A stretch of 55,088 bases of DNA, taken from Clostridia bacterium (lineage in GTDB: Bacteria; Bacillota; Clostridia; Oscillospirales; CAG-272). Below the pieces are notes generated by a model, which worked only from the letters and a program-made list of their open reading frames with translations, made no database searches and was not told where the DNA came from. The stretch spans positions 1 to 55,088 of the forward strand of contig JAFTKM010000002.1 in the NCBI GenBank assembly GCA_017453245.1. Direction: 5' to 3'. Shown here piece by piece: positions 38,441 to 53,840 of this stretch; position 1 is the first letter of the stretch; each line of letters begins with the position of its first letter. A program made the translations under genes and the position numbers.

Positions 38441-39601
38441 TTATACTTCCTCGCGCTTGGGCATCCATACGATGATTACAGTCTCAACCTTTGCGGCAGG
38501 TGTTCCGTCCGTATAGACAAAGGACCTGTGAGCAACCTCAACGTAAGGCGTGGGATTGCAGTCATACTTAGAGGATAGAGTTCCGCCGCCGGTGATATTG
38601 CCGAAGATCTCACCCCAGCCGCCCTCGTAATTAAGGTACTCCTGGAAGTCGTTATAGTGGTTATATGTATAGAATACGTAATTCTCTCCGATCTCGATCA
38701 CACCGTCTCTGTCAAGGTCATATCTTGCGTGTACGATACGCGCCGCGCCGCGGGTGATCTTTGTGCCGTTATTATAGGGGGCAACCGCATATCCGTTGCC
38801 GGTATCGGTGCCTGTTGTGCCTATATCCATCTCATAGTAGTAGAGATCGCCGCCGCAGCCCGAAATGTTGGGAAGCACGGGCTCGTAGGGGTATCTCGAG
38901 GTATCACCCGAGAAGTTAGTGTGATTGACTCTCAGGTATATGCCCCAAGGGCTTTGGGAGGGCTTGGTCTTCTTGGACTCGGAGTGGTTTGCGGGAATAT
39001 CTCCAAAGGCGAATACGTATGCCGCAACCTCCTCAAGAGTGACGTAAGCGCCGCCCTTGTATATCTTATTCACTATCTCACCGTATGCGTTAACAACGTA
39101 ATAAGTATTGCCATCCTCGGAGAAGATGTATGTGCTGTTGGAAACCAGAAGTCCGTCGATTTCGGGCTGATAACTCGACACGGTAGGCGCCGCTGCCTGA
39201 TCCGCGATGGATCCGGACATCAGATTGTGCTTGGTTCTGTAGTAGGAATCCATATAGCTTATAGCGGGGGTGTAGTTAGCGTAGAACTCGGTCACGTCCA
39301 CGTTTACGTACGGATCGCTTGTAACGGGGTCCTCCTCATTGGGAAGATAGAGTATACCTCCCTCGTGGAGCTCGGGCGCAGGCTTCTCATCCTGACCTTC
39401 GTCCTCGGTTTTGTCTCCCTCGCTGTCGGTTGAGCCGTCCCCTGCTCCGTCGTCATTTTTGTCATCGCCACGATTGATGATCAAGCTGATAAAGCCCTCA
39501 ACATCTATGCCCTTGCTTGCGAGAAGATCGCAGGAGGTTACGTTAAAGACAATAGCGAGTATCAGAAGAACCGATATCAACAGTCTTTTCATAGATTTCA
39601 C
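38441..39601 (-). CDS. lipoprotein with probable barnase-type ribonuclease domain
   Basis: The 386-residue protein has a GTG start 7 nt after GAGGT and a lipobox VTSC (Cys24), then an acidic, low-complexity linker (about 45-80). Residues about 185-325 read like barnase: VTLEEVAAYVFAFGDIP (compare the N-terminal VA.Y....LP helix), LPNISG...YYYEMDI placing Glu257 at the catalytic Glu73, AARIV with Arg288 at Arg87, and YTYNHYNDF with His315 at His102. All three key positions are kept in order. It would be a membrane-anchored RNase acting outside the cell. No barstar-like inhibitor is adjacent. Alignment is by eye and needs confirmation. Confidence 0.65.
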   Translation of the reverse strand: MKSMKRLLISVLLILAIVFNVTSCDLLASKGIDVEGFISLIINRGDDKNDDGAGDGSTDSEGDKTEDEGQDEKPAPELHEGGILYLPNEEDPVTSDPYVNVDVTEFYANYTPAISYMDSYYRTKHNLMSGSIADQAAAPTVSSYQPEIDGLLVSNSTYIFSEDGNTYYVVNAYGEIVNKIYKGGAYVTLEEVAAYVFAFGDIPANHSESKKTKPSQSPWGIYLRVNHTNFSGDTSRYPYEPVLPNISGCGGDLYYYEMDIGTTGTDTGNGYAVAPYNNGTKITRGAARIVHARYDLDRDGVIEIGENYVFYTYNHYNDFQEYLNYEGGWGEIFGNITGGGTLSSKYDCNPTPYVEVAHRSFVYTDGTPAAKVETVIIVWMPKREEV

Positions 39602-39635
39602 AAAAAATACCTCATTTCACATAATTCGCTATTTT

Positions 39636-39664
39636 ATTATAACACGGCAAGATAAATAATTCAA
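39636..39664 (-). promoter_or_regulatory. promoter of the barnase-like gene
   Basis: On the reverse strand TTGAAT (39659-39664), 17-bp spacer, TATAAT (39636-39641). Confidence 0.7.
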
Positions 39665-39712
39665 TAGCATATAAACAATAGAACAAATAATATTAATAAA
39701 TCGCATAATGTA

Positions 39713-39741
39713 AAAAAGCACGCACCCGAAGGTGCGTGCTC
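39713..39741 (-). terminator. terminator of the importer-nuclease operon
   Basis: AGCACGCACC (39717-39726) pairs with GGTGCGTGCT (39731-39740) around CGAA; the leftward strand follows with TTTTTT. It ends the operon after the OB-fold lipoprotein. Confidence 0.9.
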
Positions 39742-39767
39742 TAATTATTCATTAATTGCCATTGATA

Positions 39768-42059
39768 TTATGCAACAGTGCAGATAACGATATCTTCCTG
39801 AGTTCCCTTGTAGCCGGAGAAACGAGGGCTGGAAGCATTCCACTGGATATATCTCTCATCAGCTCCATCATTAAGATGAACCTTAAGAACACCGTCAATA
39901 AACTCAATATTCCACTTTGCAAGAGCATCAGTCTTGTCATCAGTAACCTTGAGATAGTTGCTTCCCTTAACTGCAAGGAGATAACCTTCCTCAGACTTTA
40001 TTGCCCAAGTTCCATCAGCATTAAGCTCAAGGGTAAGAACGGAAACAGCTGCGCCGGAAGCGTAAGTAAGAGAACCATCATCATTTCTTGTAGCCTCAAC
40101 ACCAACTCTGAAATTACCATTGCTGCTCGGAACGGAGCAAACCTGAGCGGTAGTGCTGCCTGCAATTACGATCTTTGTGCCATCTGCAAGCTGAGCAACA
40201 TCAGTGATGGGAGCAGAAGTGGTTGTGGTGGGCACATCGGTATCGGAATCATCGGGAGTTGTGGGAACATCACCGCTACCGGTGTTGTCGTTTCCGCCAT
40301 TGCCCGAAGTAGCAACAACGATAGACTTGAAGTACATAGCACCGCTAGAGGTATTGCTGATAACAAGATCACCGGCTACATCCGAGTTAGTAGCAACGGT
40401 AATAGTAAATGCGGATACATCGTAACCATTAGAGTTCGTAGTACCGGTAGCCTCCTTGGTAGCAAGAACTGCATTGGAGTCGTAGGTAAGCTCAACACCA
40501 CCGAAGGTGATGGTGGGCATGTAAGGAGAATCGTAGCTGGAAACGAGAATAATGGTAACGGATTCTACTTTTAAATTGCTAATGGTAATAACACCGCTTG
40601 CCTTCTTAACCTGGAATACATAAGGAAGACCATGAGCGTTTCTAAGAACATCGGCGGTGGTAATAGTAAGGCCATCGCATGTATATGTACCGTTGTAATT
40701 ACCGTAAGAGGGGTAGCTACCGCTCTCCTCAGCGGGAATGCTAGCATAAACTTTGTCAGAAGTAAGCTCTATGCCGTCCACAGGAGTAGGATTAGGATCT
40801 ACGGGAGTGTCGCCACCCTCAGCGGGAGTGTGAGAGGTGATCCAACCGTCCTTCATCTGAGGATCATTGTACTTACCGATGATACCGTAAACAGTGATGG
40901 TATCGCCTGCAACGGGCTTAACTGCCATATCCTTGTAGGAGTTAGTACCTGTAGCGTCATAAGTACCATAGATACAAAGAGTGTTAGTACCGTCGGTGAT
41001 ATACATATTACCGTAGGTATCGTTGTAAACTTCTGTGATTACACCGGTAACGTAGTACTTGCCCTCGGTGTACTGATCCTTAACCTTGGTGTTACCAAGG
41101 TCAATAGCCTGCTTGATGGTAAGAGTGCTATCAGCTGCAGGATCATCTGCAACGGGTCTCTCATCGGGAGTGAGAGTCTCAGCGTAAGCCTTGGTCATGA
41201 AAGTAAGGGGGAACTGACCGCCTTCAACGTTGATGTTGTCAGGCTTGAAGTAAGTAACCTCGGAAATACAAACAGTCTCAAACGCGTTGTAGGTACCTAC
41301 ACCGTACTTGATACCGTCAATAGTGGTCTGCCAGGTGGAGATTTCCTGAACGTAGGTGAATACGCTTGCCTTCTCGGTAGAGAAGCCGATGTACTTGGAA
41401 ACCTTGCCTGCATCATTAGCGATACCCTGAGCAAGAACGTAGGTCTTAGTGCCGTTGATAGTGGTGTACCACTTGTAACCGCCGTCAACCTTCTCTACGT
41501 AGTAATCAGCAGCAGCCTTGGGATCAAGAGTGGTCTCGATATACTTCTCATTCTGCTGAGACTTACTGGTAGCGAAGAGAGTAAGGCCAAGGTTAACCTG
41601 CTCGAGGAAGAGCTTGTAAGCTACGCCCTCTTCAGGCTCGGTAACGATACCGGTGGAATCAATAACGGGGAGAGTCTTGTTGAACTTAACCTCAACCTTG
41701 TTGCCATCTGCATCGGTGATGGTAGCGGTAAGAACGTAAGCTACCTCAGTTGCATTGGTGTCGGGGAGATCTACAGTCCAGAAGTTTGCCTTGCTGCTTT
41801 CCTTGATGGTAATGGTATCAAGGTCTACAGTCCAGGTAACAGCGAAGGATGTGCCGTCGATAATAACCTTACCAACAAGGTCATAGTCGCCGGGGATAGC
41901 AGTAGCTGCATCCTTGTAGGTGCTGAAGAGGTAAGTCTTAGCCTCTTCGAGAGTGGGGCCTTCCTCGCCACCGCCAATAAGGCCGTTGATCACGTCACAG
42001 CCTACCATAGAGGTAAGAGCCATAACGAGGACGAGAAGGAATGCCAGAATCTTTTTCAT
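39768..42059 (-). CDS. large lipoprotein with Ig-like and OB-fold-like domains
   Basis: The 763-residue protein has a lipobox MVGC (Cys21). Residues about 35-130 look like an Ig-like domain. Residues about 310-410 resemble an OB-fold of the kind found with extracellular nucleases: GKYYVTGVITEVYNDTYGNMYITDGTNTLCIYG, then GDTITVYGIIGKYNDPQMKDGW. A Thr/Asp-rich linker near 610 leads to a C-terminal beta-rich domain. No catalytic motif is visible. OB-folds of this kind bind nucleic acid or glycans; here it may hold nucleic acid near the nuclease encoded 42 nt upstream. Confidence 0.68.
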   Translation of the reverse strand: MKKILAFLLVLVMALTSMVGCDVINGLIGGGEEGPTLEEAKTYLFSTYKDAATAIPGDYDLVGKVIIDGTSFAVTWTVDLDTITIKESSKANFWTVDLPDTNATEVAYVLTATITDADGNKVEVKFNKTLPVIDSTGIVTEPEEGVAYKLFLEQVNLGLTLFATSKSQQNEKYIETTLDPKAAADYYVEKVDGGYKWYTTINGTKTYVLAQGIANDAGKVSKYIGFSTEKASVFTYVQEISTWQTTIDGIKYGVGTYNAFETVCISEVTYFKPDNINVEGGQFPLTFMTKAYAETLTPDERPVADDPAADSTLTIKQAIDLGNTKVKDQYTEGKYYVTGVITEVYNDTYGNMYITDGTNTLCIYGTYDATGTNSYKDMAVKPVAGDTITVYGIIGKYNDPQMKDGWITSHTPAEGGDTPVDPNPTPVDGIELTSDKVYASIPAEESGSYPSYGNYNGTYTCDGLTITTADVLRNAHGLPYVFQVKKASGVITISNLKVESVTIILVSSYDSPYMPTITFGGVELTYDSNAVLATKEATGTTNSNGYDVSAFTITVATNSDVAGDLVISNTSSGAMYFKSIVVATSGNGGNDNTGSGDVPTTPDDSDTDVPTTTTSAPITDVAQLADGTKIVIAGSTTAQVCSVPSSNGNFRVGVEATRNDDGSLTYASGAAVSVLTLELNADGTWAIKSEEGYLLAVKGSNYLKVTDDKTDALAKWNIEFIDGVLKVHLNDGADERYIQWNASSPRFSGYKGTQEDIVICTVA

Positions 42060-42101
42060 CTTTTTGCTCCTTTATATTTTATTTTTGGGAAACCAAGATA
42101 A

Positions 42102-43412
42102 TTAGTGCTTAACAACGTCGTCAAGCGAGTAAACCTTGATCTGATAAGTACCGTTACCGGTATCGTTGAGATCAAAGTAATCAACTATACCCTGCACGTC
42201 TATGGTAGCGCCGGTGAAGTAGCTCTCGGTAATAACGTTGCCGTTAGCATCCTTGAGAAGAGCGGTTCTTACAGAGATCGTCTTGCCGTCAACCTGACAG
42301 GTAAGAGTCATCTCGCCATTAGACTGAGTGGTATAGGTGTCTACAACCTTAAGGCTCTTCATCGAGATAGAGGTGGAAACCGCAAGCTTGGTGAAAGCGA
42401 GGTCAAGAGTCTCTTCCTCGGTCTCAATCTTTACGCTGCCGTAGAATTCCTCCGCAGTAGTCTCACGGAAGGCAATCTCGTTCTCCTTGCTGATAACAGC
42501 GGTGTTAGCGGGATCATTCGGCTTCATACGGTTGTAGGAAAGGCTGGAAACCTGATAGGTGCCGTGGAAGGAGCCTACAACGCCGACAACACGTACTCTG
42601 TTGCCCTGCGCAAGAGGCTTGATAAGGTTGGAATCATATCCGTAGAAGAGCTGGATGCCGTAGTACATATCTGTCTCGGGATCATACTCCTCTATGTAAG
42701 CGGTCCAGTCACTGTTGTAGGTGATAACACCCTCAAAAGCAACCTTAGCGCCATTGTAATCCTCGATATTTACTCTGAGCTCCTTGAGGGTAACGCTTGT
42801 AGCCTCACCGTAGGGGAACTGAGGGTCAATATCATCAGAGAAGATGTAAAGCTTTTCACTGGATGCCTGAGCAATAGCGGCAACTGCAGCCTCACCGTAA
42901 ATGGTGCCGCCTGCCTTGGAGCCTACTGCCAAGCCGTTCTGAAGAATTTCAAGGTTGAGGTTGCGGTAATCCGCGCCCTCTGCGGGCTTATACCATACCC
43001 ATACAAGGAATCTGCCATTGCCGTCGAAGTTCCAGCTTGAATCCTCGGACTCAACTATGATAGAAACGGCATTGGTGAGCTTTTCCTTAGTAAAAGCGGA
43101 TGCAGCCTTGCCCCACTCCTCGATCTTACCGGTAGACTCGGGAGTGTTGATAGCGAGGTATCTCGCCTTCATAACACCGGTAACGTCAACGCTGGTAGGA
43201 ACGTAGAAATGAGTGGTGTCACCGTCGATGTGTGACTTCATGGTAACCTCAAGCTTCTTTGTGCTTGAGTTCATATCGAGCTTGGTCTGTTCAACGTAAT
43301 CTACGTGAATCGGACCGTCTTCGCCATCATCGTCCCTATTGCAGGAAGCAAAGCTTCCCACAATAAGACAAAGAAGGAGAATAATCGACAAAACTTTAAT
43401 ATTGGTTTTCAT
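42102..43412 (-). CDS. staphylococcal-nuclease-like lipoprotein with OB-like C-terminal region
   Basis: Start ATG 43412 is preferred (AAAGG 5 nt upstream); GTG 43418 is too close to that site. The 436-residue protein has a lipobox FASC (Cys24). The SNase domain (about 55-190) has GDTTHF (Asp65, Thr66), ARYLAINTPES (Arg84, Asn89, Glu92) and GNGRFLVWVW (Arg134), equivalent to Asp21, Arg35, Asp40, Glu43 and Arg87 of staphylococcal nuclease; Asp40 is Asn here. Residues about 205-300 and the C-terminus show OB-like strands (AKVAFEGVITYNSD, GNRVRVVGVVGSFHGTYQV). It is expected to cut DNA and RNA at the cell surface. It lies 26 nt behind the binding-protein gene. Confidence 0.83.
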   Translation of the reverse strand: MKTNIKVLSIILLLCLIVGSFASCNRDDDGEDGPIHVDYVEQTKLDMNSSTKKLEVTMKSHIDGDTTHFYVPTSVDVTGVMKARYLAINTPESTGKIEEWGKAASAFTKEKLTNAVSIIVESEDSSWNFDGNGRFLVWVWYKPAEGADYRNLNLEILQNGLAVGSKAGGTIYGEAAVAAIAQASSEKLYIFSDDIDPQFPYGEATSVTLKELRVNIEDYNGAKVAFEGVITYNSDWTAYIEEYDPETDMYYGIQLFYGYDSNLIKPLAQGNRVRVVGVVGSFHGTYQVSSLSYNRMKPNDPANTAVISKENEIAFRETTAEEFYGSVKIETEEETLDLAFTKLAVSTSISMKSLKVVDTYTTQSNGEMTLTCQVDGKTISVRTALLKDANGNVITESYFTGATIDVQGIVDYFDLNDTGNGTYQIKVYSLDDVVKH

Positions 43413-43444
43413 ATTCACCTTTAGTTATAGGTTGTATTTTTGAA

Positions 43445-44851
43445 TTACTGACCTGCCTGATACTTACACTCAGCTACTGCGTCAGCAAACGCCTTCTTGA
43501 TAGCAGCCTCAAGGCCTGCATCAGGAAGAACGAAGCACTTCTGAAGAAGGAGACCAACCTGGTCACGAGCAACAGAAGAACCGTTGAATGCGGGAGATGC
43601 GTAGTAAGCCTCCTCCTGCTCAAGAGCAACCTTAACAGCGTAAGCCTGGATGTTCTCGGTGCTTGCCTCAGCAAGGAACTCAGCGTAAACCTCGTTCTGC
43701 TGAACGGACTTGATAACGGGAGCATAACCATTGTTCATGGAAACTCTTGCCTGGAAGTTAACGTCGGTGGTAAGGAACTTAGCGAAGAGCCAGGTTGCAA
43801 GTACTTCCTGAGGATTGTCCTTCTTGAAGATACAGAGAGAGGGACCCTGAGAAATTACCTTGGGAGCAGAGGGATTAACCTGAGGAATGGAGGTAATACC
43901 AACCTCGAACTCGAACTTACCGTTGGTCTGGCTGGGCTGCTGATAGGTAGCACCGCCGGTAGAACCGATACACATATAGCAACGGGTACCCTTGGATGCC
44001 TCGCTGCCTTCGGTAGAAGAGCTGCTGTTACCGGTGAAGAGCGCGGAGGTGTAACCGCCGGAAAGCTCCTCAGTGGTTACCCACTTGTTCTGGTACCAGG
44101 TACGGAACTTGGTAACGAAGTCGATATTCTGCTGGTTGTTGAAGATGAAGTTCTCGCCGGTAGCAGAGGTGTATGCAGAGTTGTACTGCTCACACATGGT
44201 GATGAACCAGTTGGACTCGGAGTCGTAGCCAAGAGGAATAGAGGTGGGCTCAATTGCCTTGATTGCCTTACAAACCTCTTCCATCTCGTCCCAGGTGGTG
44301 GGAACGGTAAGGTTGTGCTCCTCGAAGAAGGTCTTGTTGTAGTAAAGAACCTCGGTGGACTTGGAAAGAGGAAGAGTGTACATCTTGCCGTCGCCGAAGG
44401 TCTTACCCTCGTTGTAGTAACCCTGAATGAAATCGTCGATCTGCGCCTGAGTGAAGCCAACGGTCTCGTCCTCGATGAAAACGTCGAGAGTCTGAACTGC
44501 GCCTGCTACGTTGTAAAGAGCAACGTGGTCGGGATAGCAGTAAGCAAGGTTAGGCTGGTTGCCAACGGAGATCTCAGTCTTGATCTGGTCACGAACGCCG
44601 TTGTAATCGCCGTAAGACTCGTGCTCAACGGTGATGTTGGGATAGATCTCATTGAACTCAGCGATTGCGTCGTTGAGGATTGCCTGAAGACCTGCGCCCA
44701 TAGAGTGATAGAACTTAATAGTAACTGCGCTTCCGTCATAGCCACCCTCGGGCATAACGAAATCAGCAGCACTATTCTTCTTGCCGCCGCAGCTTGCAAG
44801 CATGGTAACTGCCATTGCAAGCATGAGAATCAGTGCAATAATTCTTTTCAT
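43445..44851 (-). CDS. ABC importer substrate-binding lipoprotein (family 1, UgpB-like)
   Basis: The 468-residue protein has a lipobox LASC (Cys21). The mature part begins VTIKFYHSMGAGLQAILNDAIAEFNE and continues with the family 1 binding-protein layout (YYNKTFFEEHNLTVPTTWDEMEEVCKAI, SQGPSLCIFKKDNPQEVLATWLFAKFLT). Relatives bind sugars or glycerol-3-phosphate. In this operon it sits between two permeases and nuclease lipoproteins, so a nucleoside, nucleotide or deoxyribose-phosphate ligand is plausible but unproven. Confidence 0.9.
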   Translation of the reverse strand: MKRIIALILMLAMAVTMLASCGGKKNSAADFVMPEGGYDGSAVTIKFYHSMGAGLQAILNDAIAEFNEIYPNITVEHESYGDYNGVRDQIKTEISVGNQPNLAYCYPDHVALYNVAGAVQTLDVFIEDETVGFTQAQIDDFIQGYYNEGKTFGDGKMYTLPLSKSTEVLYYNKTFFEEHNLTVPTTWDEMEEVCKAIKAIEPTSIPLGYDSESNWFITMCEQYNSAYTSATGENFIFNNQQNIDFVTKFRTWYQNKWVTTEELSGGYTSALFTGNSSSSTEGSEASKGTRCYMCIGSTGGATYQQPSQTNGKFEFEVGITSIPQVNPSAPKVISQGPSLCIFKKDNPQEVLATWLFAKFLTTDVNFQARVSMNNGYAPVIKSVQQNEVYAEFLAEASTENIQAYAVKVALEQEEAYYASPAFNGSSVARDQVGLLLQKCFVLPDAGLEAAIKKAFADAVAECKYQAGQ

Positions 44852-44910
44852 TGTTTTTTCGTCCTTTTTGTTTGTTATTTTTTAAGACTTACGTCATTAA
44901 AACTAATTAA

Positions 44911-45804
44911 TTATCCCTTGATACCGGATCTCGATACACCCTTCATGATATACTTACGAAGGAAGATGAATACGAGGAAGAGGGGAGTGGAAACAACTGC
45001 TACCGCAGCCATCTGAACGGGGATATCCGTTACACCCGAGGCATCGGTGAACGCAGTACGAAGACCGTTGGTGATAAGTCTGTGCGCGTCATCGTTGGCA
45101 ACGAGTCTGGGCCACATGTAAGAGTTCCAGGAACCCATCATCTTAAGTATCGTAATGGAAATAATTGTTGGCAAAGCAAGGGGGATCATGACCTTCCAGA
45201 GATATTTGATGTCACTGGTACCGTCAACCTTTGCCGCCAGATAAAGCTCATTGGGAACCTGCATGAAGTTCTGCTTGAGAAGGTAGATGTAGAAGATACT
45301 TACAAGGAACGGAACGATAAGAACCGTGTAAGTCTTCATCCATCCGAAGGTGTTTACCGTCTGATAATTCGTAATAGTGAAAAGCTCACCGGGAATCATC
45401 ATTGTAGCGAGAAGGAGAGCGAAGAGAGCATCCTTGCCCTTGAACTCAAGTCTTGCAAATGCGAAAGCGGAAAGAACCGTGATCACAAGAGAAAGTGCGG
45501 TAGACACAACACCTACGTAAAGAGTGTTGAGGAAGAGTCTGCCGAGAATAAGGTCCTTGCTCGTAAATACGTCAACGTAGTTACGGAAGTCAAAGTACTG
45601 AGGGATAAGAGTAGGGATCGCGAGTCTGTACTCATCCATAGTCTTAAGGGAGGAGATGATCATCCAATAGAACGGGAACAGAACGATTATACCCATTGTA
45701 ATAAGGAAAGCGTAAAGCATAATTTTTACTATTATCTTTACTACCTTCTGCTGGGCCGATACCTTTTTCATATCTCTGTTTTGCATTACATTCAAATCTG
45801 ACAT
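44911..45804 (-). CDS. ABC importer permease (UgpE/CUT1 type)
   Basis: This 297-residue membrane protein has six helices and the EAA loop, NELYLAAKVDGTSDIKYLWKVMIPLALPTI, that docks to the ATPase. Its N-terminus starts with a basic segment, then MLYAFLITMGIIVLFPFYWMIISSLK. It pairs with the preceding permease gene (15-nt gap). Confidence 0.93.
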   Translation of the reverse strand: MSDLNVMQNRDMKKVSAQQKVVKIIVKIMLYAFLITMGIIVLFPFYWMIISSLKTMDEYRLAIPTLIPQYFDFRNYVDVFTSKDLILGRLFLNTLYVGVVSTALSLVITVLSAFAFARLEFKGKDALFALLLATMMIPGELFTITNYQTVNTFGWMKTYTVLIVPFLVSIFYIYLLKQNFMQVPNELYLAAKVDGTSDIKYLWKVMIPLALPTIISITILKMMGSWNSYMWPRLVANDDAHRLITNGLRTAFTDASGVTDIPVQMAAVAVVSTPLFLVFIFLRKYIMKGVSRSGIKG

Positions 45805-45819
45805 TGTATCGACACCTCC

Positions 45820-46836
45820 TTAATAATGAGTCTTCTTCTTGCTGACGTAGAGGTTGACCATCGTTACAGCAAAGATGATAAAGAAGAGGATAATAGCTGC
45901 CGCAGAAGCAGTACCCTCCTGGTTACCGATAGCCCTGTAAATGAAACCAACCATCGTGTCAAGCGCATAAGCATCGCCAACAGGGCCCATGCTCTCGCCG
46001 AAGATACCTACTATACTGGAATACTCCTTGAATCCGCCGATGAAGCCCGTGATAATAACGTAAGCAAGCATGGGAGAAAGGAGCGGAACGGTGATTCTCC
46101 AGAAGGTTCTCGCTCTGGACGTGCCGTCAACCTTAGCAGCCTCGTAGTACTGCTTGTTAACGCTCTGAAGTCCGCCGAGAAGAATGAGAATCTTGAAGGG
46201 GAGCGCGTTCCACACGATATATACTGTCATAACAACGATGTTAGCCCAGTATTCGGAGCCCGCGTTTACCCAGTTTACGTAATTGAAGCCAAGAGCCTCA
46301 AGCACGTTGTTTACGATACCTACAGAGTCAGGTCTTACGCTTCCGCCGATGATCATATTAAACATTGCGGCAAATACCATTCCTATCGCGATGGAGTTGG
46401 TAACGTAAGGAAGGAAGAATACTGTCTGAAGGAATCTGTTAAGGAACTTGATAGAGTTAAGGCAAACCGCGATAAGAAGTGCTAAGAAGGTAGAGATCGG
46501 AACGGTCAGTACGCAAAGAAGCACCGTGTTCTTAAGACAGGTGATGAAGCCGGGATACTTAAGAACTCTCGTAAAGTTGCCTATACCAAATGCAAACGAC
46601 TGACCGTTTACGGCCTTCATCGTCGTATATCCCTCAAGCAAGGACATTCTTATGGTATTGAAGATAGGCCAGATGGTAAATATCGCAAGAAGCACAAGTG
46701 CCGGCGACAGATACAGCCAACCCTTCCATTTATCGAACTTTTTATAAACGAGGTTTACGCAGAATTTCTGCCAGACCCACTGCTTACAGAAAACTTCAAC
46801 AAACCACTGGAAAACGTTTTGTTTGCTTTCTGTCAT
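45820..46836 (-). CDS. ABC importer permease (UgpA/CUT1 type)
   Basis: This 338-residue membrane protein has an extended basic N-terminus (about 1-35), then six helices starting GWLYLSPALVLLAIFTIWPIFNTI. The EAA loop NKQYYEAAKVDGTSRARTFWRITVPLLSPM is clear. Its ribosome binding site lies within the end of the ATPase gene, one base away, so the genes are tightly coupled. Confidence 0.93.
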   Translation of the reverse strand: MTESKQNVFQWFVEVFCKQWVWQKFCVNLVYKKFDKWKGWLYLSPALVLLAIFTIWPIFNTIRMSLLEGYTTMKAVNGQSFAFGIGNFTRVLKYPGFITCLKNTVLLCVLTVPISTFLALLIAVCLNSIKFLNRFLQTVFFLPYVTNSIAIGMVFAAMFNMIIGGSVRPDSVGIVNNVLEALGFNYVNWVNAGSEYWANIVVMTVYIVWNALPFKILILLGGLQSVNKQYYEAAKVDGTSRARTFWRITVPLLSPMLAYVIITGFIGGFKEYSSIVGIFGESMGPVGDAYALDTMVGFIYRAIGNQEGTASAAAIILFFIIFAVTMVNLYVSKKKTHY

Positions 46837-46837
46837 A

Positions 46838-47941
46838 TCAGTTCACCTCGAAATATATTCTTTCTTCTGTTTCCTTATCAAAGAGGAATACCTTATGAGG
46901 CTTAAGATTGAGCTTAACGGTCTCGGAAGCTCTGTCTATCTTGTAGTCCGCGTCAACGATGGAACGAACAACGGGATTGAGAGATGCGGAATGTGTGGAA
47001 ACGATGGAAACGTCACGGCCCATAACCTCAACGTTGCTAAGGTTAGCCTCGAGAACGCCGTCCTCCGCGGGAACAAATCCCTCGGGACGGATACCTACGT
47101 AAACCGCGCGGTCATCCACGCCGGGCACGTCAAGAACTGCGGACTCGCCAAGATAGAGCTTGCCGCCCTTAACCTCGCCGTCGAATACGTTGATGGGGGG
47201 AGTTCCAAGGAACTTGGCTACGAAGAGATTGGTAGGATTGTCGTAAACCTCCTGAGGCTTACCAACCTGCTGAACAACGCCGAGCTTCATAACTACGATA
47301 ACGTCGGAAATGGACATAGCCTCTTCCTGGTCGTGGGTTACGAATACGGTGGTGATGCCGGTCTCTCTCTGAATTCTTCTGATCTCCTCACGGGTCTGAA
47401 GACGGAGTCTTGCATCAAGGTTGGAGAGGGGCTCGTCGAGAAGAAGCACGCGAGGCATCTTTACAAGCGCACGCGCGATAGCAACTCTCTGCTGCTGACC
47501 ACCGGAAAGCTCACTGGGCTTTCTGTCCATAAGCTCGTCGATCTGAACAAGCTTAGCAGCCTCGTAAGCACGCTTAAGCATAGTCTCCTTGTCCATCTTA
47601 TCCTCGCCCTTAAGATTCTGAAGGGGGAAGAGGATGTTCTGCTTTACCGTCATATGAGGATAAAGCGCGTAGTTCTGGAACACAAGTCCAATACCTCTGT
47701 TCTCGGGAGTGAGCTCGGTAACGTCCTCATCTCCGAAGAAGATCTTACCTGACGTGGGCTTCTGAAGACCACTGATCATGTAAAGCGTTGTGCTCTTTCC
47801 GCAACCCGAGGGTCCGAGAAGACCAACGAGCTTGCCGTCGGGAATTTCGAAGGTGAAGTTGTTTACTGCGATTACTTCACTGTTCTCCTTCTTGTTACGG
47901 CTGGGAAAGATTTTCGTTAGATTTTGTAATTCAACCTTCAT
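46838..47941 (-). CDS. ABC importer ATPase (UgpC/MsmK type)
   Basis: This 367-residue ATPase has Walker A GPSGCGKST, signature LSGGQQQR, Walker B RVLLLDEPLSNLD and an H-loop VFVTHDQEEAM, with a C-terminal TOBE/MsmK regulatory domain (about 240-367). Start ATG follows AAGGAGG. Unlike many Bacillota, which share one such ATPase among importers, this operon has its own. Confidence 0.94.
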   Translation of the reverse strand: MKVELQNLTKIFPSRNKKENSEVIAVNNFTFEIPDGKLVGLLGPSGCGKSTTLYMISGLQKPTSGKIFFGDEDVTELTPENRGIGLVFQNYALYPHMTVKQNILFPLQNLKGEDKMDKETMLKRAYEAAKLVQIDELMDRKPSELSGGQQQRVAIARALVKMPRVLLLDEPLSNLDARLRLQTREEIRRIQRETGITTVFVTHDQEEAMSISDVIVVMKLGVVQQVGKPQEVYDNPTNLFVAKFLGTPPINVFDGEVKGGKLYLGESAVLDVPGVDDRAVYVGIRPEGFVPAEDGVLEANLSNVEVMGRDVSIVSTHSASLNPVVRSIVDADYKIDRASETVKLNLKPHKVFLFDKETEERIYFEVN

Positions 47942-47996
47942 CTAACATAACCTCCTTGAAAGTCGTGTTTTGTATTTTATAAAAAAGATATGCTCT

Positions 47997-48758
47997 TTAA
48001 TATTCCTTTTTGTTGACCTCTTCCTCGTGGATTCTGGTCTTGTACGCGATAAGCTCGTCCTCGCTCTCGAAGATCATCTGGCTCTGATAGTCTACCACAA
48101 CCGTATCCGAAATGAGATCGTGTATGGTGGAGCGTGTCTTGGTGTAGCACATAGTGAAAATCTCAAGCAGGAGAATAAGAATAAGTAAGACGGTTCCGAC
48201 AACGCCGAGATTGCCGAACAGTATCATCAGGAGAATGTAGATGGGTACCATAGTCTCCATCGTGTACTTTCCGATTATCGACCTGATGAAGTGAGCCTGT
48301 CCGCCGAGCTTTACGCCGTTGGTTCTCATTACCGCCAGACCGAATATCTTCTTTCCGAGCGTCCTGCCGTGCTTGAATAAGATCGGAACGACAAGCTCAA
48401 GGCCGATAAACGCCAGAAGCAAGCTCATCGTCAGAGTTATCAGGGAAAGGTTGAGAAGCATATTGTAAGCGTAAATTACCTTCTCATCCTTCGCAAATTC
48501 GGCGTCCGCCGCTTCGTATTTCTGTTTTTCCTCCTCGCTGAGCTTCTCATATTCCTCGGGAGAAAGATTAAGATCTATACCGTATTTTTCGGAATATTCT
48601 CTCTCTGCCTCGCTGAGCACGTCGTAATGATCACCGTAGCTCAGAAAAAGCGAGAATATAGCAGCAAGACCGACCGAAACTATTACGATCATTACCGCGT
48701 CAAACAAAAATGCAGAAATTCTCTTCCAGAAATCCGCTCTTTGCAATTCAAATCTCAT
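47997..48758 (-). CDS. RDD-family membrane protein
   Basis: Starting at ATG 48758, after GGAAGG (the longer frame's TTG start lies in the leader), the protein has 253 residues. It opens RADFWKRISAFLFDAVMI, the RDD signature, and has about four helices with a Glu/Lys-rich loop (YSEKYGIDLNLSPEEYEKLSEEEKQKYEA) and LGKKIFGLAVMRTNG. RDD proteins are poorly understood; some act in ion or solute export. It lies 55 nt ahead of the importer genes and may be in the same operon. Confidence 0.85.
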   Translation of the reverse strand: MRFELQRADFWKRISAFLFDAVMIVIVSVGLAAIFSLFLSYGDHYDVLSEAEREYSEKYGIDLNLSPEEYEKLSEEEKQKYEAADAEFAKDEKVIYAYNMLLNLSLITLTMSLLLAFIGLELVVPILFKHGRTLGKKIFGLAVMRTNGVKLGGQAHFIRSIIGKYTMETMVPIYILLMILFGNLGVVGTVLLILILLLEIFTMCYTKTRSTIHDLISDTVVVDYQSQMIFESEDELIAYKTRIHEEEVNKKEY

Positions 48759-48782
48759 TGGTTTACCTTCCAGCAAAAAACA

Positions 48783-48839
48783 AAGTGTTTATCATACAAC
48801 TTGACGGAACACACAGCAGATCAAATCCAATAAACACTT
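48783..48839 (-). promoter_or_regulatory. leader inverted repeat upstream of the RDD gene
   Basis: AAGTGTTTAT (48783-48792) pairs with ATAAACACTT (48830-48839) across a 37-nt loop. On the leftward strand the stem is followed by TGTTTTTTGC just before the RDD ribosome binding site, so it could act as a leader terminator (attenuator). No clear promoter for this operon was found upstream. Confidence 0.4.
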
Positions 48840-49008
48840 ATTAATTTATTTATATAGCATAAAATATAATAGCACACCAAAAGGTAAAAAACAACCGTTT
48901 TTAAGAAATTTTATGAGTTTTTTTACGAAAGACGTCGAATAGTTAAAAAATTATTGTACAGGTTTGTTCATATTGACCACTGACCGAGTCAAAAATCTTC
49001 CTTGTTTA

Positions 49009-49037
49009 TTGACACGGTGATTTTTTTGGGTTATAAT
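49009..49037 (+). promoter_or_regulatory. promoter of the deo genes
   Basis: TTGACA (49009-49014), 17-bp spacer, TATAAT (49032-49037), about 85 nt upstream of deoC. A small hairpin TACCGC-CAATCA-GCGGTA (49071-49088) lies in the leader. The rest of 48840-49008 is AT-rich with no gene. Confidence 0.8.
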
Positions 49038-49125
49038 GGACAATGGATAGGAATCCCCACGGACAAGGTATACCGCCAATCAGCGGTAAAGCCGCCGTGA
49101 ATTACATACAATGAAAGGAATAAAA

Positions 49126-49794
49126 ATGGCAGACGTAAAAAAGATTTTATCAATGTGTGACCACACCCTTCTCGGTGTGACCTCCACCTGGGAGGAGATA
49201 CGCAAGATATGTGACGACGGAATCAAATTCGGTACCGCATCGGTATGCATTCCCCCGAGCTACGTAAAGAAGGCTAAGGAGTACGTCGGCGATAAGCTCA
49301 CGATCTGTACCGTAATCGGCTTCCCTAACGGATATAACACCACCGAGGTAAAGGTATTTGAGACCAAGGACGCAATCGCAAAGGGCGCTGATGAGATAGA
49401 TATGGTAATCAACGTCGGCAATCTCAAGGACGGTCTTGAGGACGAGATCCGCGAGGAGATAAGAGCGATCAAGGAGGCCTGCGGCGATCATATACTCAAG
49501 GTTATTATTGAAACCTGCCTTCTCACCGAGGAGGAAAAGATCACTATGTGTCGCCTTGTTACCGAGGCAGGCGCAGACTATATCAAGACATCGACCGGTT
49601 TCTCAAAAGCGGGCGCAACCCTTGAAGATGTGGCTTTAATGAAAACAAATGTTGGCAAAAACGTGCTTGTTAAAGCTGCGGGCGGTATTTCCGGAATTGA
49701 GGATGCCGAGAAGTTTATCGAGATCGGCGCTTCCCGCCTCGGCACCAGCAGAGTCGTAAAAGCAGTCCAGGGGCTTGAAGGATCGGGATACTGA
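49126..49794 (+). CDS. deoC: deoxyribose-phosphate aldolase
   Basis: Starting at ATG 49126, just after GAAAGGA (the earlier ATG at 49111 would put this site inside the gene), the protein has 222 residues. Schiff-base Lys154 is in DYIKTSTGF, Lys183 in VKAAGGI, and Asp92 in EIDMVINVG, the full catalytic set. It splits 2-deoxyribose-5-phosphate into glyceraldehyde-3-phosphate and acetaldehyde, the final step of deoxynucleoside use. It leads a set of five nucleoside-breakdown genes. Confidence 0.96.
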
Positions 49795-49854
49795 GTAAAT
49801 GCAAAATGCAGAATGCAAAATGCAAAATGAAATGCGGAATGCGAAGCGCAAAGC

Positions 49855-49984
49855 GCGAAGTGAAGGACGAGGAAGGCCCCGTAGGGACCGGCGTCCTCGA
49901 CGGTCCGTAAATGCGAAGTGCGAAGTGAAGGACGAGGAAGGCCCCGTAGGGACCGGCGTCCTCGACGGTCCGTAAATGCAAAAT
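49855..49984. repeat. 65-bp tandem duplication between deoC and deoD
   Basis: A unit of 65 bp occurs twice (49855-49919 and 49920-49984), almost identical until the right edge. Each contains GGACGAGGAAGGCC...GGCGTCCTCGACGGTCC, which can fold as GAGGAC/GTCCTC. On both sides are degenerate AATGCAAAATGC-like and AATGAATAATGA-like short repeats (49800-49854, 49975-50010). It fills the 227-bp gap. Confidence 0.85.
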
Positions 49985-50021
49985 GAATAATGAATAATGA
50001 AGAATCGAAAGGAATATAAAA

Positions 50022-50723
50022 ATGGCAACTCCACATATTAACGCCGAGATCGGCGCATTTGCGAAAACAGTTCTTATGCCCGGAGATCCTCTCCGTGCAA
50101 AATATATTGCGGAAAACTATCTTGAGGACGCGGTCCTCGTCAACAACGTAAGAGGTGTACAGGGCTACACCGGCTATTACAAGGGCAAGAAGGTATCGGT
50201 TATGGCTTCCGGTATGGGACAGCCCTCCATCGGCATCTACTCCTATGAGCTCTTCAACTTCTTCGGCGTTGAGGCAATCATCCGCGTAGGCTCCTGCGGC
50301 TCCTTCCACCCCGACCTCCACGCCCGTGACATAGTTGTGGCTATGGGCGCTTGCACCAACGGTAACTACGCTTCTCAGTACAATCTCCCCGGCACCTTCT
50401 CCCCTATTGCTGACTTCGACCTTGTGCGTCGCGCGGCAGAGGAATGTGAGAAGAAGGGCGTTAACTATAAGGTAGGAAACATTCTTTCCTCCGATATGTT
50501 CTACGACGACGCAAACTCGGGTATGACCTGGTCCAAGATGGGCGTTCTCGGAGTTGAGATGGAGTCTGCGGCTCTCTACTGCAACGCGGCAAGAGCAGGC
50601 AAGAAGGCGCTGTGCATCTGCACCGTCAGCGACTCCTTCATTTATCCCGAGGAAAACACTACCGCAGAGGAAAGACAGAATTCCTTCACTCAGATGATGG
50701 AAATCGCGCTTGAACTCGCATAA
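50022..50723 (+). CDS. deoD: purine-nucleoside phosphorylase, DeoD type
   Basis: This 233-residue DeoD-type PNP reads TPHINA, VLMPGDPLRAKYIAE, GMGQPSIGIYSYELF, IRVGSCGSF, GVLGVEMESAALY and CTVSDSF, the hexameric family signatures. It splits (deoxy)inosine, (deoxy)guanosine and adenosine with phosphate into base and (deoxy)ribose-1-phosphate. Its product feeds DeoB. The start follows GAAAGGA. Confidence 0.96.
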   Translation: MATPHINAEIGAFAKTVLMPGDPLRAKYIAENYLEDAVLVNNVRGVQGYTGYYKGKKVSVMASGMGQPSIGIYSYELFNFFGVEAIIRVGSCGSFHPDLHARDIVVAMGACTNGNYASQYNLPGTFSPIADFDLVRRAAEECEKKGVNYKVGNILSSDMFYDDANSGMTWSKMGVLGVEMESAALYCNAARAGKKALCICTVSDSFIYPEENTTAEERQNSFTQMMEIALELA

Positions 50724-50814
50724 AAGTGCGATAAAAGCATACACGGGTAGGCACATAGGCGAAAAATCGTCAATCGGATATGCCGCTCGCAAAAGATGGA
50801 GCGCAGGCTCATGA

Positions 50815-50862
50815 GACTGCATCTTACGTGTCATTTAGAGCGTAGCGAGTTCCCTGCCCACC
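50815..50862 (+). repeat. possible remnant of a common dispersed intergenic element
   Basis: TGTCATTTAGAGCGTAGCGA (about 50829-50848) resembles the TGTCAT-CTGAGCG-AGCGA-type element scattered through many bacterial genomes. Only one imperfect copy is seen here and there are no clear edges. It lies in the 162-bp deoD-deoB gap, which has no other feature. Confidence 0.35.
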
Positions 50863-50885
50863 CAAAAAAAACACAGGAGTTATTT

Positions 50886-52049
50886 ATGGCAAAAAGAGTA
50901 TTTTTAATTGTTCTTGACAGCGTTGGAATCGGTGAAATGCCCGACGCCCATCTTTGGGGCGACGAGGGCAGCAACACGGTCGGCGCGATACGCCGCCATC
51001 CCGATTTCTCCTGTCCCAATCTTGAAAAGCTCGGCTTCTTCAACATAGATACCGTCGGTGGCGGAGTTAAATCTCCGCTCGGCTCCTTTGCCCGTATGCA
51101 CGAGGCGTCAAAGGGCAAGGATACCACCATCGGACACTGGGAAATAGCCGGCATTTATTCACCACGCCCCCTGCCTACCTACCCCAAGGGCTTCCCAAAG
51201 GAGGTAATGGAGGAGTTCGAAAAGAGAACGGGCAGAGGCACGCTTTGTAATCTTCCCTACTCCGGCACGGACGTGCTCCGTGACTATGGAGAGGAGCACT
51301 TAAAAACAGGTAAGCTTATAGTTTACACCTCGGCGGACAGCGTATTCCAGATAGCGGCGCACGAATCCATCGTAAGCCGTGAGGAGCTCTACCGCTACTG
51401 CGAGATCGCCAGAGAAATTCTCCAGGGTGAGCACGGAGTCGGCAGAGTAATAGCGCGCCCCTTCGATGGCGAGCACCCCTTCAGAAGAACGTCGGGAAGA
51501 CACGACTTCTCACTCATCCCCCCTGCTCTCACAGTACCCGAGCAGCTTAAGAGCGCAGGATACGACTCTATATCGGTTGGTAAGATCTATGACATCTTTG
51601 CGGGAGTAGGCTATACCGAGAGTCATCCCACCGTAAGCAATGACGACGGATGCAATAAGTCTATTGAAATAATGAAGCGCGATTTCAACGGTCTTTGCTT
51701 CATCAACCTCGTAGACTTCGATATGGTATACGGACACAGAAATAATCTTGAGGGCTACGCAAAGGCTATGACCGCCTTTGACGAAAGGCTCGGAGAGATG
51801 CTTCCCCTCCTTCGCGATGAGGATATACTCATCATCACCGCGGACCACGGCTGCGACCCCTCCACCCCCTCGACCGACCACTCTAGAGAATACACTCCTA
51901 TGGTCATTTACGGAAAAGGTATCAAGGCGGGAGTAAATCTCGGAACGAGAGAGACCTTTGCCGACATAGGCGCAACCGTGCTTGAATGGTTCGGTGAGCC
52001 GACAGACAAGGTTTACGGCAACGGCTTCCTTCACGAGGTGGCAAAATGA
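50886..52049 (+). CDS. deoB: phosphopentomutase
   Basis: Starting at ATG 50886, after CAGGAG, the protein has 387 residues, the normal DeoB length; a longer upstream frame runs through the dispersed repeat. It reads VFLIVLDSVGIGEMPDA, GSNTVGAI, GKDTTIGHWEIAG, CNLPYSGTDVL, NLVDFDMVYGHRN and ITADHGCDPSTPSTDHSREYTPM, the alkaline-phosphatase-fold metal residues. It converts (deoxy)ribose-1-phosphate to the 5-phosphate for DeoC or the pentose phosphate pathway. It overlaps cdd by 4 nt. Confidence 0.96.
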   Translation: MAKRVFLIVLDSVGIGEMPDAHLWGDEGSNTVGAIRRHPDFSCPNLEKLGFFNIDTVGGGVKSPLGSFARMHEASKGKDTTIGHWEIAGIYSPRPLPTYPKGFPKEVMEEFEKRTGRGTLCNLPYSGTDVLRDYGEEHLKTGKLIVYTSADSVFQIAAHESIVSREELYRYCEIAREILQGEHGVGRVIARPFDGEHPFRRTSGRHDFSLIPPALTVPEQLKSAGYDSISVGKIYDIFAGVGYTESHPTVSNDDGCNKSIEIMKRDFNGLCFINLVDFDMVYGHRNNLEGYAKAMTAFDERLGEMLPLLRDEDILIITADHGCDPSTPSTDHSREYTPMVIYGKGIKAGVNLGTRETFADIGATVLEWFGEPTDKVYGNGFLHEVAK

Positions 52050-52453
52050 CAGATAAAGAACTGTTACTTAAAGCAATAGAGGCAAGAGCCTTTGCCTACG
52101 CCCCCTATTCAAATCACAAGGTTGGCGCGGCGCTCGTCGGCAAGAGCGGTAAGATCTATACCGGATGCAACGTCGAAAACGCCGCGTACACCCCCACCAA
52201 CTGCGCCGAGAGGACTGCAATCTTCAAGGCGGTGAGCAAGGGAGAAAGAGAATTCACGGCAATTGCCATTGTCGGGGGCCTCGGTGATAATCTCTCGGAG
52301 CTTTGCGCCCCCTGCGGTGTATGCCGTCAGGTGCTCTCCGAGTTCTGCGACGGAGATCTCAGGATCATACTCGGAACTCCGGAGAAGATCACGGTAACGA
52401 CTCTTTCCAATATCCTCCCCTATTCCTTCGGCAAGAGTGATCTCGCAAAATAG
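52046..52453 (+). CDS. cdd: cytidine deaminase
   Basis: The 135-residue tetrameric-type Cdd has zinc ligands Cys53 (TNCAERTA, with Glu55 catalytic) and Cys90/Cys93 (PCGVCRQ). It deaminates cytidine and deoxycytidine to uridine and deoxyuridine, making them substrates for the next enzyme. Its ATG overlaps the deoB stop codon. Confidence 0.96.
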   Translation: MTDKELLLKAIEARAFAYAPYSNHKVGAALVGKSGKIYTGCNVENAAYTPTNCAERTAIFKAVSKGEREFTAIAIVGGLGDNLSELCAPCGVCRQVLSEFCDGDLRIILGTPEKITVTTLSNILPYSFGKSDLAK

Positions 52454-52538
52454 TAAAAAACAAAGATTATGATTGTCAAAACCGGCTTATTTCGTAAGTT
52501 TTTTGGCAATAGCAGTATTTTTTCAGGAGAAAGCGCTT

Positions 52539-53840
52539 ATGCGTATGTTTGACATTATCCGAAAGAAGCGAGACGGTCTCGCACTCTCGGAAAAGGAAAT
52601 ACAGTGGTTCGTTGACGGCTACGTAAAGGGAGAGATTCCCGACTATCAGGCCTCAGCGCTCTGTATGGCAATATACTTCAGGGGTATGAACGTTGAGGAG
52701 ACGACAGCCCTCACCTTCGCTATCCGCGACTCGGGTGAAAAGCTGAAGTTCAACAATATTAACGGTCTGAGAGTAGATAAGCACTCTACGGGCGGTGTCG
52801 GTGACAAGACGAGCCTCGTTGTAACACCCATCGTTGCGACTCTCGGCGTGAAAGTAGCAAAAATGAGCGGACGCGGTCTCGGTCACACAGGCGGCACCGT
52901 TGACAAGCTCGAGGCTATCCCCGGCTTCAAGACCGACCTCCCCACAGAGGAGTTTGAAGAAATAGTAAACCGCGTTGGTATCGCGATAGTAGGTCAGAAT
53001 GCAACTCTCGCGCCTGCGGATAAGCTGCTCTACGCTCTGCGCGACGTAACGGCAACCGTTGACAGTCTGCCCCTTATAGTTTCAAGCATTATGAGTAAGA
53101 AGCTGGCGGCGGACGACGACTGTGTAGTACTTGACGTAAAGACCGGCTCCGGTTCGTTTATGAAAACAAAGGAGCAAAGCCGCGAGCTTGCCGAGTGGAT
53201 GGTAGCCATCGGTAAGGCGGCAGGCAAGAGAATGCGCGCACTGATCACGGATATGGACCGACCTCTCGGTCACGCAATCGGAAACTCGCTTGAGGTTGTC
53301 GAGGCAATCGAAACACTCAAGGGCAATGGTCCCGAGGACCTCACAGAGCTCTCGGTTGCTCTTGCAGCTCATATGCTCGTTATCTCGGACAGAGGCAGCT
53401 ATGAGGAATGCGAGAGAAACGTAAGACGCGTTATTGAAAACGGTGAGGCTCTTATGACCTTTGCAAATATGGTTGAGGCGCAGGGGGGCAATAAGGAGTG
53501 GATACTCCACCCCGAGCTCTTCCCTACCGCGCCCTATTCGCTTGAGGTCAAGGCGGGTGCAAGCGGCTACATAACCGGTGTTGATACCGAGGGCTACGGC
53601 ACGGCAAGTCTCCTTCTTGGCGCGGGCAGAAATACCAAGGAGGACAAAATCGACTTCGCGGCGGGCATTAAGCTTGTCAAAAAGACGGGCGACAAGGTAG
53701 AAAAGGGCGACGTTATCGCAGTGCTCTACACAAGCGATAAAGGACGTCTTGATGTTGCGGCAAAGAGACTTAGTGACGCAACATTTATCGGTGATGATAA
53801 ACCCGAAGATGTTCCTCTTATCTACGATATCGTAGAATAA
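52539..53840 (+). CDS. pdp: pyrimidine-nucleoside phosphorylase
   Basis: Starting at ATG 52539, after CAGGAG (52524-52529), the protein has 433 residues, the standard length; an extra upstream stretch lacks a site. It reads RMFDIIRKKRDG, LRVDKHSTGGVGDKTSLV, KMSGRGLGHTGGTVDKLEAIPG and DVKTGSGSFMKT, the family signatures. It splits uridine, deoxyuridine and thymidine with phosphate. It completes the pathway with Cdd upstream and DeoB/DeoC downstream in metabolism. Confidence 0.96.
   Translation: MRMFDIIRKKRDGLALSEKEIQWFVDGYVKGEIPDYQASALCMAIYFRGMNVEETTALTFAIRDSGEKLKFNNINGLRVDKHSTGGVGDKTSLVVTPIVATLGVKVAKMSGRGLGHTGGTVDKLEAIPGFKTDLPTEEFEEIVNRVGIAIVGQNATLAPADKLLYALRDVTATVDSLPLIVSSIMSKKLAADDDCVVLDVKTGSGSFMKTKEQSRELAEWMVAIGKAAGKRMRALITDMDRPLGHAIGNSLEVVEAIETLKGNGPEDLTELSVALAAHMLVISDRGSYEECERNVRRVIENGEALMTFANMVEAQGGNKEWILHPELFPTAPYSLEVKAGASGYITGVDTEGYGTASLLLGAGRNTKEDKIDFAAGIKLVKKTGDKVEKGDVIAVLYTSDKGRLDVAAKRLSDATFIGDDKPEDVPLIYDIVE

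Follow-up and report, generated by a model that had tools for sequence, protein, structure and literature searches.

A conserved nuclease–importer locus and the probable use of extracellular nucleic acids by gut Clostridia

The window analysed here is a stretch of 55,088 nucleotides (nt) comprising one entire contig (JAFTKM010000002.1) of the Clostridia bacterium assembly GCA_017453245.1 (Oscillospirales, CAG-272), a draft genome of 1.59 Mb that is 64% complete. Between positions 34049 and 53840 it carries genes for putative surface nucleases, an ATP-binding cassette (ABC) importer, phosphoesterases and nucleoside catabolism, which we consider likely to form a nucleic-acid utilisation locus: polymers would be digested at the cell surface, the small products imported, dephosphorylated in the cytoplasm and passed on to catabolism by the Deo enzymes. 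More tentatively, we propose that the importer is dedicated to phosphorylated products of nucleic acids (3'- or 5'-nucleotides or short oligonucleotides), an ABC system of free-living gut Clostridia that would work together with SurE and NrnA-type enzymes in the cytoplasm; such loci would be a nucleic-acid counterpart of polysaccharide utilisation loci. Relatives keep nuclease and importer strictly linked, and two further genes, surE and DHH2, tend to accompany them.

Gene content and organisation of the locus

The features of the locus, from left to right along the window, are as follows.

34049..34993, plus strand: DHH1, NrnA-like DHH/DHHA1 phosphoesterase (PF01368/PF02272; NrnA model NF053633 E=7.6e-71, under the equivalog cut-off)
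34990..35964, plus strand: DHH2, NrnA-like DHH/DHHA1 phosphoesterase
35961..36671, plus strand: surE, 5'/3'-nucleotidase (PF01975; TIGR00087 over cut-off)
38441..39601, minus strand: probable barnase-like ribonuclease lipoprotein (PF00545 E=0.006, under cut-off)
39715..39742, minus strand: intrinsic terminator after the OB-fold lipoprotein gene (stem of 12 pairs, 7 of them G-C, and a T tail)
39768..42059, minus strand: OB-fold lipoprotein, probably nucleic-acid binding, as judged from counterparts in relatives
42102..43418, minus strand: SNase lipoprotein, putative surface nuclease (PF00565 E=3.5e-10, over cut-off)
43445..44851, minus strand: substrate-binding lipoprotein of the ABC importer (SBP_bac_8 E=1.7e-36)
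44911..45804, minus strand: UgpE-like importer permease (family matches)
45820..46836, minus strand: UgpA-like importer permease (family matches)
46838..47941, minus strand: UgpC-like importer ATPase (family matches)
47997..48776, minus strand: membrane protein of the RDD family, at the head of the operon (PF06271 E=1.7e-15)
49009..49037, plus strand: consensus promoter before deoC (TTGACA-17-TATAAT, 12/12; a pattern match only, to the sigma-70 consensus)
49111..49794, plus strand: deoC, deoxyribose-phosphate aldolase (TIGR00126 over cut-off)
50022..50723, plus strand: deoD, purine nucleoside phosphorylase (TIGR00107 over cut-off)
50796..52049, plus strand: deoB, phosphopentomutase (TIGR01696 over cut-off, match from residue 34)
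52046..52453, plus strand: cdd, cytidine deaminase (TIGR01354 over cut-off)
52473..53840, plus strand: pdp, pyrimidine-nucleoside phosphorylase (TIGR02644 over cut-off)

The importer operon runs on the minus strand from the RDD gene through the ATPase, the UgpA-like and UgpE-like permeases, the binding lipoprotein and the SNase lipoprotein to the OB-fold lipoprotein, with gaps of 55, 1, 15, 59, 26 and 42 nt. All genes named in an initial annotation of this DNA, made from the sequence alone, are present where it placed them, the ABC set matching UgpC/UgpA/UgpE-like and SBP_bac_8 families; the spacing of 1–59 nt that it gave from the ATPase to the OB-fold lipoprotein is borne out by measurement, as is the strong terminator at the operon's end, but it overlooked the RDD gene at the head. 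It also began the locus at 38441, whereas the locus extends further left to take in DHH1, DHH2 and surE (34049–36671).

The importer has the make-up of a CUT1/Ugp-type system, with a SBP_bac_1/8 binding protein, two BPD_transp_1 permeases and a MalK/UgpC-type ATPase. Its proteins fall below the NCBIfam cut-offs for the sn-glycerol-3-phosphate (Ugp) transporter itself (UgpA 79.1/335, UgpB 64.5/411, UgpC 354.9/432 and UgpE 103/297 bits). A comparison of the regions upstream of RDD and DHH1 gave no clear common operator, mostly A/T-rich dyads and weak repeats.

Conservation among relatives

Two samples of relatives were compared: 146 genomes of the window's own family, and 80 named loci. The latter are the best 80 of 515 stretches, such that close relatives are favoured, each stretch holding a short SNase-lipoprotein pattern and encoding an SNase relative, in a collection of 84,980 species with one genome each. 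The two sets overlap in their source genomes and their counts are not additive; gene absences are uncertain where genomes are draft. Gene content, gene order, family membership, conservation and co-occurrence are direct observations throughout.

The SNase lipoprotein is encoded in 34 of the 146 family genomes, and a binding protein of at least 49% identity in exactly the same 34, the next matches in the family reaching at most 38%. The two genes adjoin in 33/34, the pair in G117 being split by a contig end. RDD was found in 27 of the 34 family stretches fetched (33 genomes), the other seven ending or breaking before its position. In the named loci, the full set of four ABC genes is present in 62/63, RDD in 63/63 of those with enough upstream sequence, and the next gene encodes an OB-type lipoprotein in 72/74. 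The initial annotation expected its proposal to fail if, in relatives, the importer sat mostly with sugar-use genes and never with nucleases; we find the opposite, as the SNase accompanies the importer in 34/34 family genomes and the binding protein lies next to it in all 79 testable named loci (79/79). The same annotation's wider claim of a single functional locus made up of nuclease, importer and deo genes is favoured by this linkage and by deo genes within the fetched stretch of 20/80 named loci (12/30 among those with 10 kb on both sides).

Of the named loci, 53 extend 6 kb or more downstream; surE is present in 37 of them, three control neighbours from the window are matched in 0/53 and an NCS2-type permease gene in 2/53. 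Across the family, surE occurs in 32/34 operon genomes against 5/112 others (one of the five being a 57-residue fragment), and DHH2, with an orthologue threshold of E ≤ 1e-70 set before the search, in 34/34 against 7/112. A genus-level control over all 146 family genomes identified 14 genera in which the operon is variably present, with 21 carriers and 19 non-carriers: here surE is found in 20/21 carriers and 1/19 non-carriers, and DHH2 in 21/21 and 4/19, whilst the BMP/PnrA-type family PF02608, which we take to be the PnrA-like binding-protein family, shows no link (12/21 and 11/19). Considering this skew, surE and DHH2 go together with the operon and cannot be counted as general family genes.

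Beyond the family, a search of the class (391 genomes) matched 13 other genomes, and the 12 loci fetched from them comprise four with importer genes, one cut by a contig end and seven without. SNase lipoproteins whose profile matches are long occur in three other families (G379, G401 and G506): the whole importer is present in two, and in the third the gene lies near the end of a contig that also has DHH1-DHH2-surE. The importer–SNase order is kept in two more divergent loci, L069 and L070. In a search of the phylum (398 genomes), SNase matches occurred in 17/397 besides the window's genome, all of them partial over the profile, and no permeases or binding protein were found in the ten such loci fetched.

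Surface lipoproteins

The SNase-like assignment made initially is upheld by the PF00565 score and by the alignment of 73 sequences (the window's and the 72 complete ones from the 80 named loci), in which D67, R86, E94 and R136 are invariant (73/73), the catalytic Arg/Glu/Arg set among them; we assume equivalence of these residues to those of the S. aureus enzyme with the help of a PDB alignment. At the site taken to correspond to the calcium ligand Asp40, 66/73 sequences have Asn and 7/73 have Asp, and the Asn may alter metal preference.

The label of OB-fold-like lipoprotein holds for relatives more clearly than for the window: five of eight counterparts at this position in related loci exceed the PF01336 cut-off, whereas the Pfam profile search did not call an OB fold in the window's own large lipoprotein. 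The latter is 37% identical (E=7e-60) to its counterpart in L126, itself under the PF01336 cut-off. A second OB-type surface protein, at L120:13110-15461, has a weak match to an LPXTG anchor (PF00746, 20.6 bits against a cut-off of 20), from which some OB-type proteins may be wall-anchored.

The barnase-like gene starts 166 nt past the OB-fold lipoprotein gene, beyond the strong terminator, and the promoter of its own that had been ascribed to it is a consensus match only. Its product scores 17.5 bits against Pfam Ribonuclease PF00545, under the gathering cut-off of 24, and neither the sequence nor its profile has PDB matches; on the other side, E257, R284, R288 and H315, which we presume to correspond to the catalytic Glu/Arg/Arg/His of barnase, are invariant in alignments of eight and of nine sequences. 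A barnase-like identity is thus likely, as first suggested, though short of family cut-offs. Since the protein was found in only 7/53 named loci, we regard it as an accessory part.

Phosphoesterase and deo genes

The DHH1/DHH2 and DHH2/surE gene pairs each overlap by 4 nt. DHH and DHHA1 domains are present in both DHH proteins, and SurE scores 164.1 bits against TIGR00087 (cut-off 135.1), the remaining twelve SurE-related models listed being under their own cut-offs. No signal peptide was seen by eye in any of the three proteins. The products of SNase and barnase end in 3'-phosphates, and SurE takes 3'-nucleotides, with which the family name, 5'/3'-nucleotidase, is consistent.

The deo genes diverge from the importer operon, to its right. 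All five genes annotated as deoC-deoD-deoB-cdd-pdp score over NCBIfam cut-offs, but they are not the seamless unit described, as deoC and deoD are separated by a repeat-containing gap of 227 nt. In this gap (49790–50020), ATGC-rich short repeats flank two 65-nt direct copies that are 97% alike; among 189 loci, only L153 has an 18-nt stretch identical to the short repeat, between its deoD and deoC. The 5' part of the deoB frame (50796–50886) presumably resembles a common repeat translated as CHLERSE..., and the true start of deoB is therefore probably near 50886. No riboswitch or leader RNA was found near deoC.

Relatives place their deo genes in two ways, either divergent from RDD (L144, L153 and L155; G013 and G011 in the family set) or beyond DHH1. 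Three loci, L097, L105 and L121, have a tight run facing the importer operon, deoC-deoD-deoB, then cdd (in L105 and L121), a second deoD-like gene and DHH1-DHH2-surE, with deoC of L097 and L121 cut by the stretch end; the tight run of L126 consists of thymidine kinase, deoC, deoD, a dGTPase-like gene, DHH1, DHH2 and surE.

A proposed route from polymer to central metabolism

From this arrangement we infer activities, cargo, regulation and benefit to the cell. The SNase and, probably, the barnase-like lipoprotein would cleave DNA and RNA at the cell surface, where the OB-fold lipoprotein probably holds the polymer, and the UgpC-type importer would bring in small products, mainly still phosphorylated as nucleotides or short oligonucleotides. 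Once in the cytoplasm, oligonucleotides would be trimmed by the two NrnA-like DHH enzymes and 5' or 3' phosphates stripped by SurE. Purine and pyrimidine nucleoside phosphorylases, together with cytidine deaminase, would then yield bases and (deoxy)ribose-1-phosphate, which DeoB would convert to the 5-phosphate; DeoC would finally split deoxyribose-5-phosphate into glyceraldehyde-3-phosphate and acetaldehyde.

Clues to the cargo come from genes that join the operon in relatives, counted over L032–L069 and L086–L165 together, such that one genome may count twice, and with gaps to RDD measured from the BLAST match and hence approximate. In 19 loci, 20 genes encode a fused protein with an NT5C-type 5'-nucleotidase and a guanylate-kinase domain; 12 of these genes lie on the RDD strand at most 64 nt before RDD and two on the opposite strand, as exemplified by L087:714-1829. 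Eight genes in eight loci encode a PHP phosphoesterase that comes closest to 3',5'-nucleoside bisphosphate phosphatase / RNase RNM, seven of them on the RDD strand at most 200 nt before RDD. No signal peptide is visible in the one example of each that was inspected. As the window's DHH and SurE proteins and these two examples lack a visible signal peptide, phosphate is probably removed inside the cell, and cytoplasmic phosphatases of this kind suggest nucleotides or short oligonucleotides as the cargo.

Several observations pull the other way. A 514-residue 5'-nucleotidase-family lipoprotein is encoded elsewhere in the window's genome, and a calcineurin/5'-nucleotidase gene lies in 15 loci, in 14 of them divergent from the operon and at most 3 kb upstream of RDD, its product being a lipoprotein in one example; surface proteins of this sort could yield nucleosides outside the cell, which leaves room for nucleoside import. 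In M. bovis, a UgpE-type permease behaves as a nucleoside transporter, and without it the uptake of nucleosides and the use of DNA are not normal (PMC12838404). The closest solved relatives of the binding protein carry sugar-binding names in the PDB comparison, and both DHH proteins miss the NrnA equivalog cut-off of NF053633 (238.6 and 231.6 against 350 bits). Two genomes, G038 and G065, carry the operon with no surE detected, and the five surE and seven DHH2 genes of the 112 operon-free genomes are exceptions in the reverse direction. Lastly, deoC is widespread in the family (115/146 genomes) and so not specific to a nucleic-acid system; on this count, carbon-source use argued from deoC alone was rejected as specific evidence.

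Could the importer instead carry nucleosides, with a surface 5'-nucleotidase dephosphorylating outside the cell and SurE and NrnA serving internal RNA turnover? This is a real possibility, for which the 5'-nucleotidase-like lipoproteins argue, as does the M. bovis UgpE-type operon as a nucleoside transporter. However, internal turnover does not predict that SurE and DHH2 follow the operon within genera, candidate BMP-type nucleoside importers are already present in 18/34 operon genomes, and phosphatase genes without a visible signal peptide join the related importer operons. We therefore give nucleotides or oligonucleotides a somewhat better chance than nucleosides of being the cargo, though not a far better one.

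We consider it rather unlikely that the purpose of the locus is phosphate supply or, in auxotrophs, nucleotide salvage, and not carbon use. PyrB is missing in 11/34 operon genomes against 17/112 others (p=0.044) and PurH in 10/34 against 19/112 (p=0.14, not clear), with both missing in 7/34; thymidine kinase, near the operon in nine related loci, and the NT5C–kinase fusion also fit salvage. Against this, PurH and PyrB are both encoded in the window's genome and in 20/34 operon genomes, and the enzymes linked in the window (deoC, deoB, pdp and cdd) are a catabolic set. It is plausible that nutrient use and salvage both occur, depending on lineage.

An ordinary sugar or glycerophosphodiester transporter, with a neighbourhood due to chance or inherited synteny, is very improbable: its nearest families are indeed sugar/UgpB types, and 12 loci of paralogous importers sit among mixed neighbours, but the linkage is strict in 21 family genera and a few other families, and the three control neighbours in the window show no such conservation. 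These paralogue loci, fetched out of 50 weaker binding-protein matches (34–38% identity; stretches of 7–12 kb with importer genes present), gave no SNase, surE, DHH or deo match. A Pfam scan of 71 of their 113 open reading frames, which left out most transporter frames, kept two binding proteins and included some short or overlapping frames, matched 78 families; the 25 listed include GH3, GH42 and GH130 but are free of nuclease and nucleotidase families.

Comparison with known systems

The nearest precedents to the proposed locus come from other lineages. In Candidatus Izemoplasmatales, putative DNA-degradation loci combine extracellular nucleases, phosphohydrolases and ABC transporters, multipartite organisations that, to those authors' knowledge, had not been described in other microorganisms (Wasmund et al. 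2021, PMC8289736). The Hujiaoplasma locus also includes NrnA (PMC10470597), and DNA is reported to promote growth of Xianfuyuplasma (PMC8397711). The window likewise co-locates putative extracellular-nuclease, phosphohydrolase and ABC genes. It differs in lineage and habitat, theirs being marine sediment or cold seep, and the passages describing those loci do not name a SNase–binding-protein–ABC–RDD operon or a facing SurE/DHH/deo operon (PMC8289736, PMC8397711, PMC10470597).

The initial annotation pointed to a SNase–ABC parallel in mycoplasmas, and this older parallel is indeed on record: the operon MAG_5030-5070 and its homologues are described as co-transcribed, with import of nucleic-acid precursors proposed (PMC3585158). 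It shares a surface SNase lipoprotein, a sugar-type binding lipoprotein and ABC genes with the window, but its order is binding protein, SNase, ATPase, permeases, and deo, SurE and NrnA are not mentioned in the passages concerned with it. The M. bovis operon MBOVPG45_0747-0751, as its report presents it, is also UgpE-type, with an ATPase, two permeases, a lipoprotein and a membrane protein, and is needed to use nucleosides from extracellular DNA efficiently; it differs in being described without a nuclease gene and in that its measured cargo is nucleosides (PMC12838404). PnrA/BMP-type nucleoside ABC importers such as P48 similarly join a surface lipoprotein to an ABC system for nucleic-acid products, with a binding protein of another, PnrA-like family in the published description (PMC12892991). 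Set against these accounts, the locus resembles the Izemoplasmatales and mycoplasma systems but lies in gut Clostridia, has a strictly conserved core and links more steps than are described there.

Among the papers listed by searches of an open-access collection, none described a nucleic-acid utilisation locus of gut Clostridia or an ABC nucleotide importer. Microbes, host cells and food supply the intestine with DNA and RNA in large amounts, a nutrient pool about whose consumers little is known, and for these the conserved locus could provide a marker. Ruminant caecum, colon or rectum is named in the record titles of 49/80 named loci. That relatives keep the arrangement suggests dedicated feeding on nucleic acids, and the proposed cargo makes a testable claim on an open question, namely whether the ABC systems of free-living bacteria take up nucleotides or short oligonucleotides in addition to nucleosides and bases.

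Neighbouring genes and variants

Between surE and the barnase-like gene lie a DUF711 gene and an ACT gene, each matched in 0/53 named loci. A choloylglycine hydrolase family gene (PF02275; 53960–54910) directly follows pdp, and is matched in 0/53 related loci. The NCS2-type xanthine/uracil permease mentioned above (PF00860; 17865–19220) is a possible route for released bases. A gene cluster whose representative (L106:96-1664) is an Endonuclease I family protein (PF04231) lies near the operon in six loci (L066, L069, L106, L107, L115 and L130); the L130 member is encoded on the surE strand and overlaps that gene. Finally, L157, from a record titled Sphaerochaetaceae from horse faeces, contains the operon from RDD to SNase, by transfer or as a mis-binned contig.

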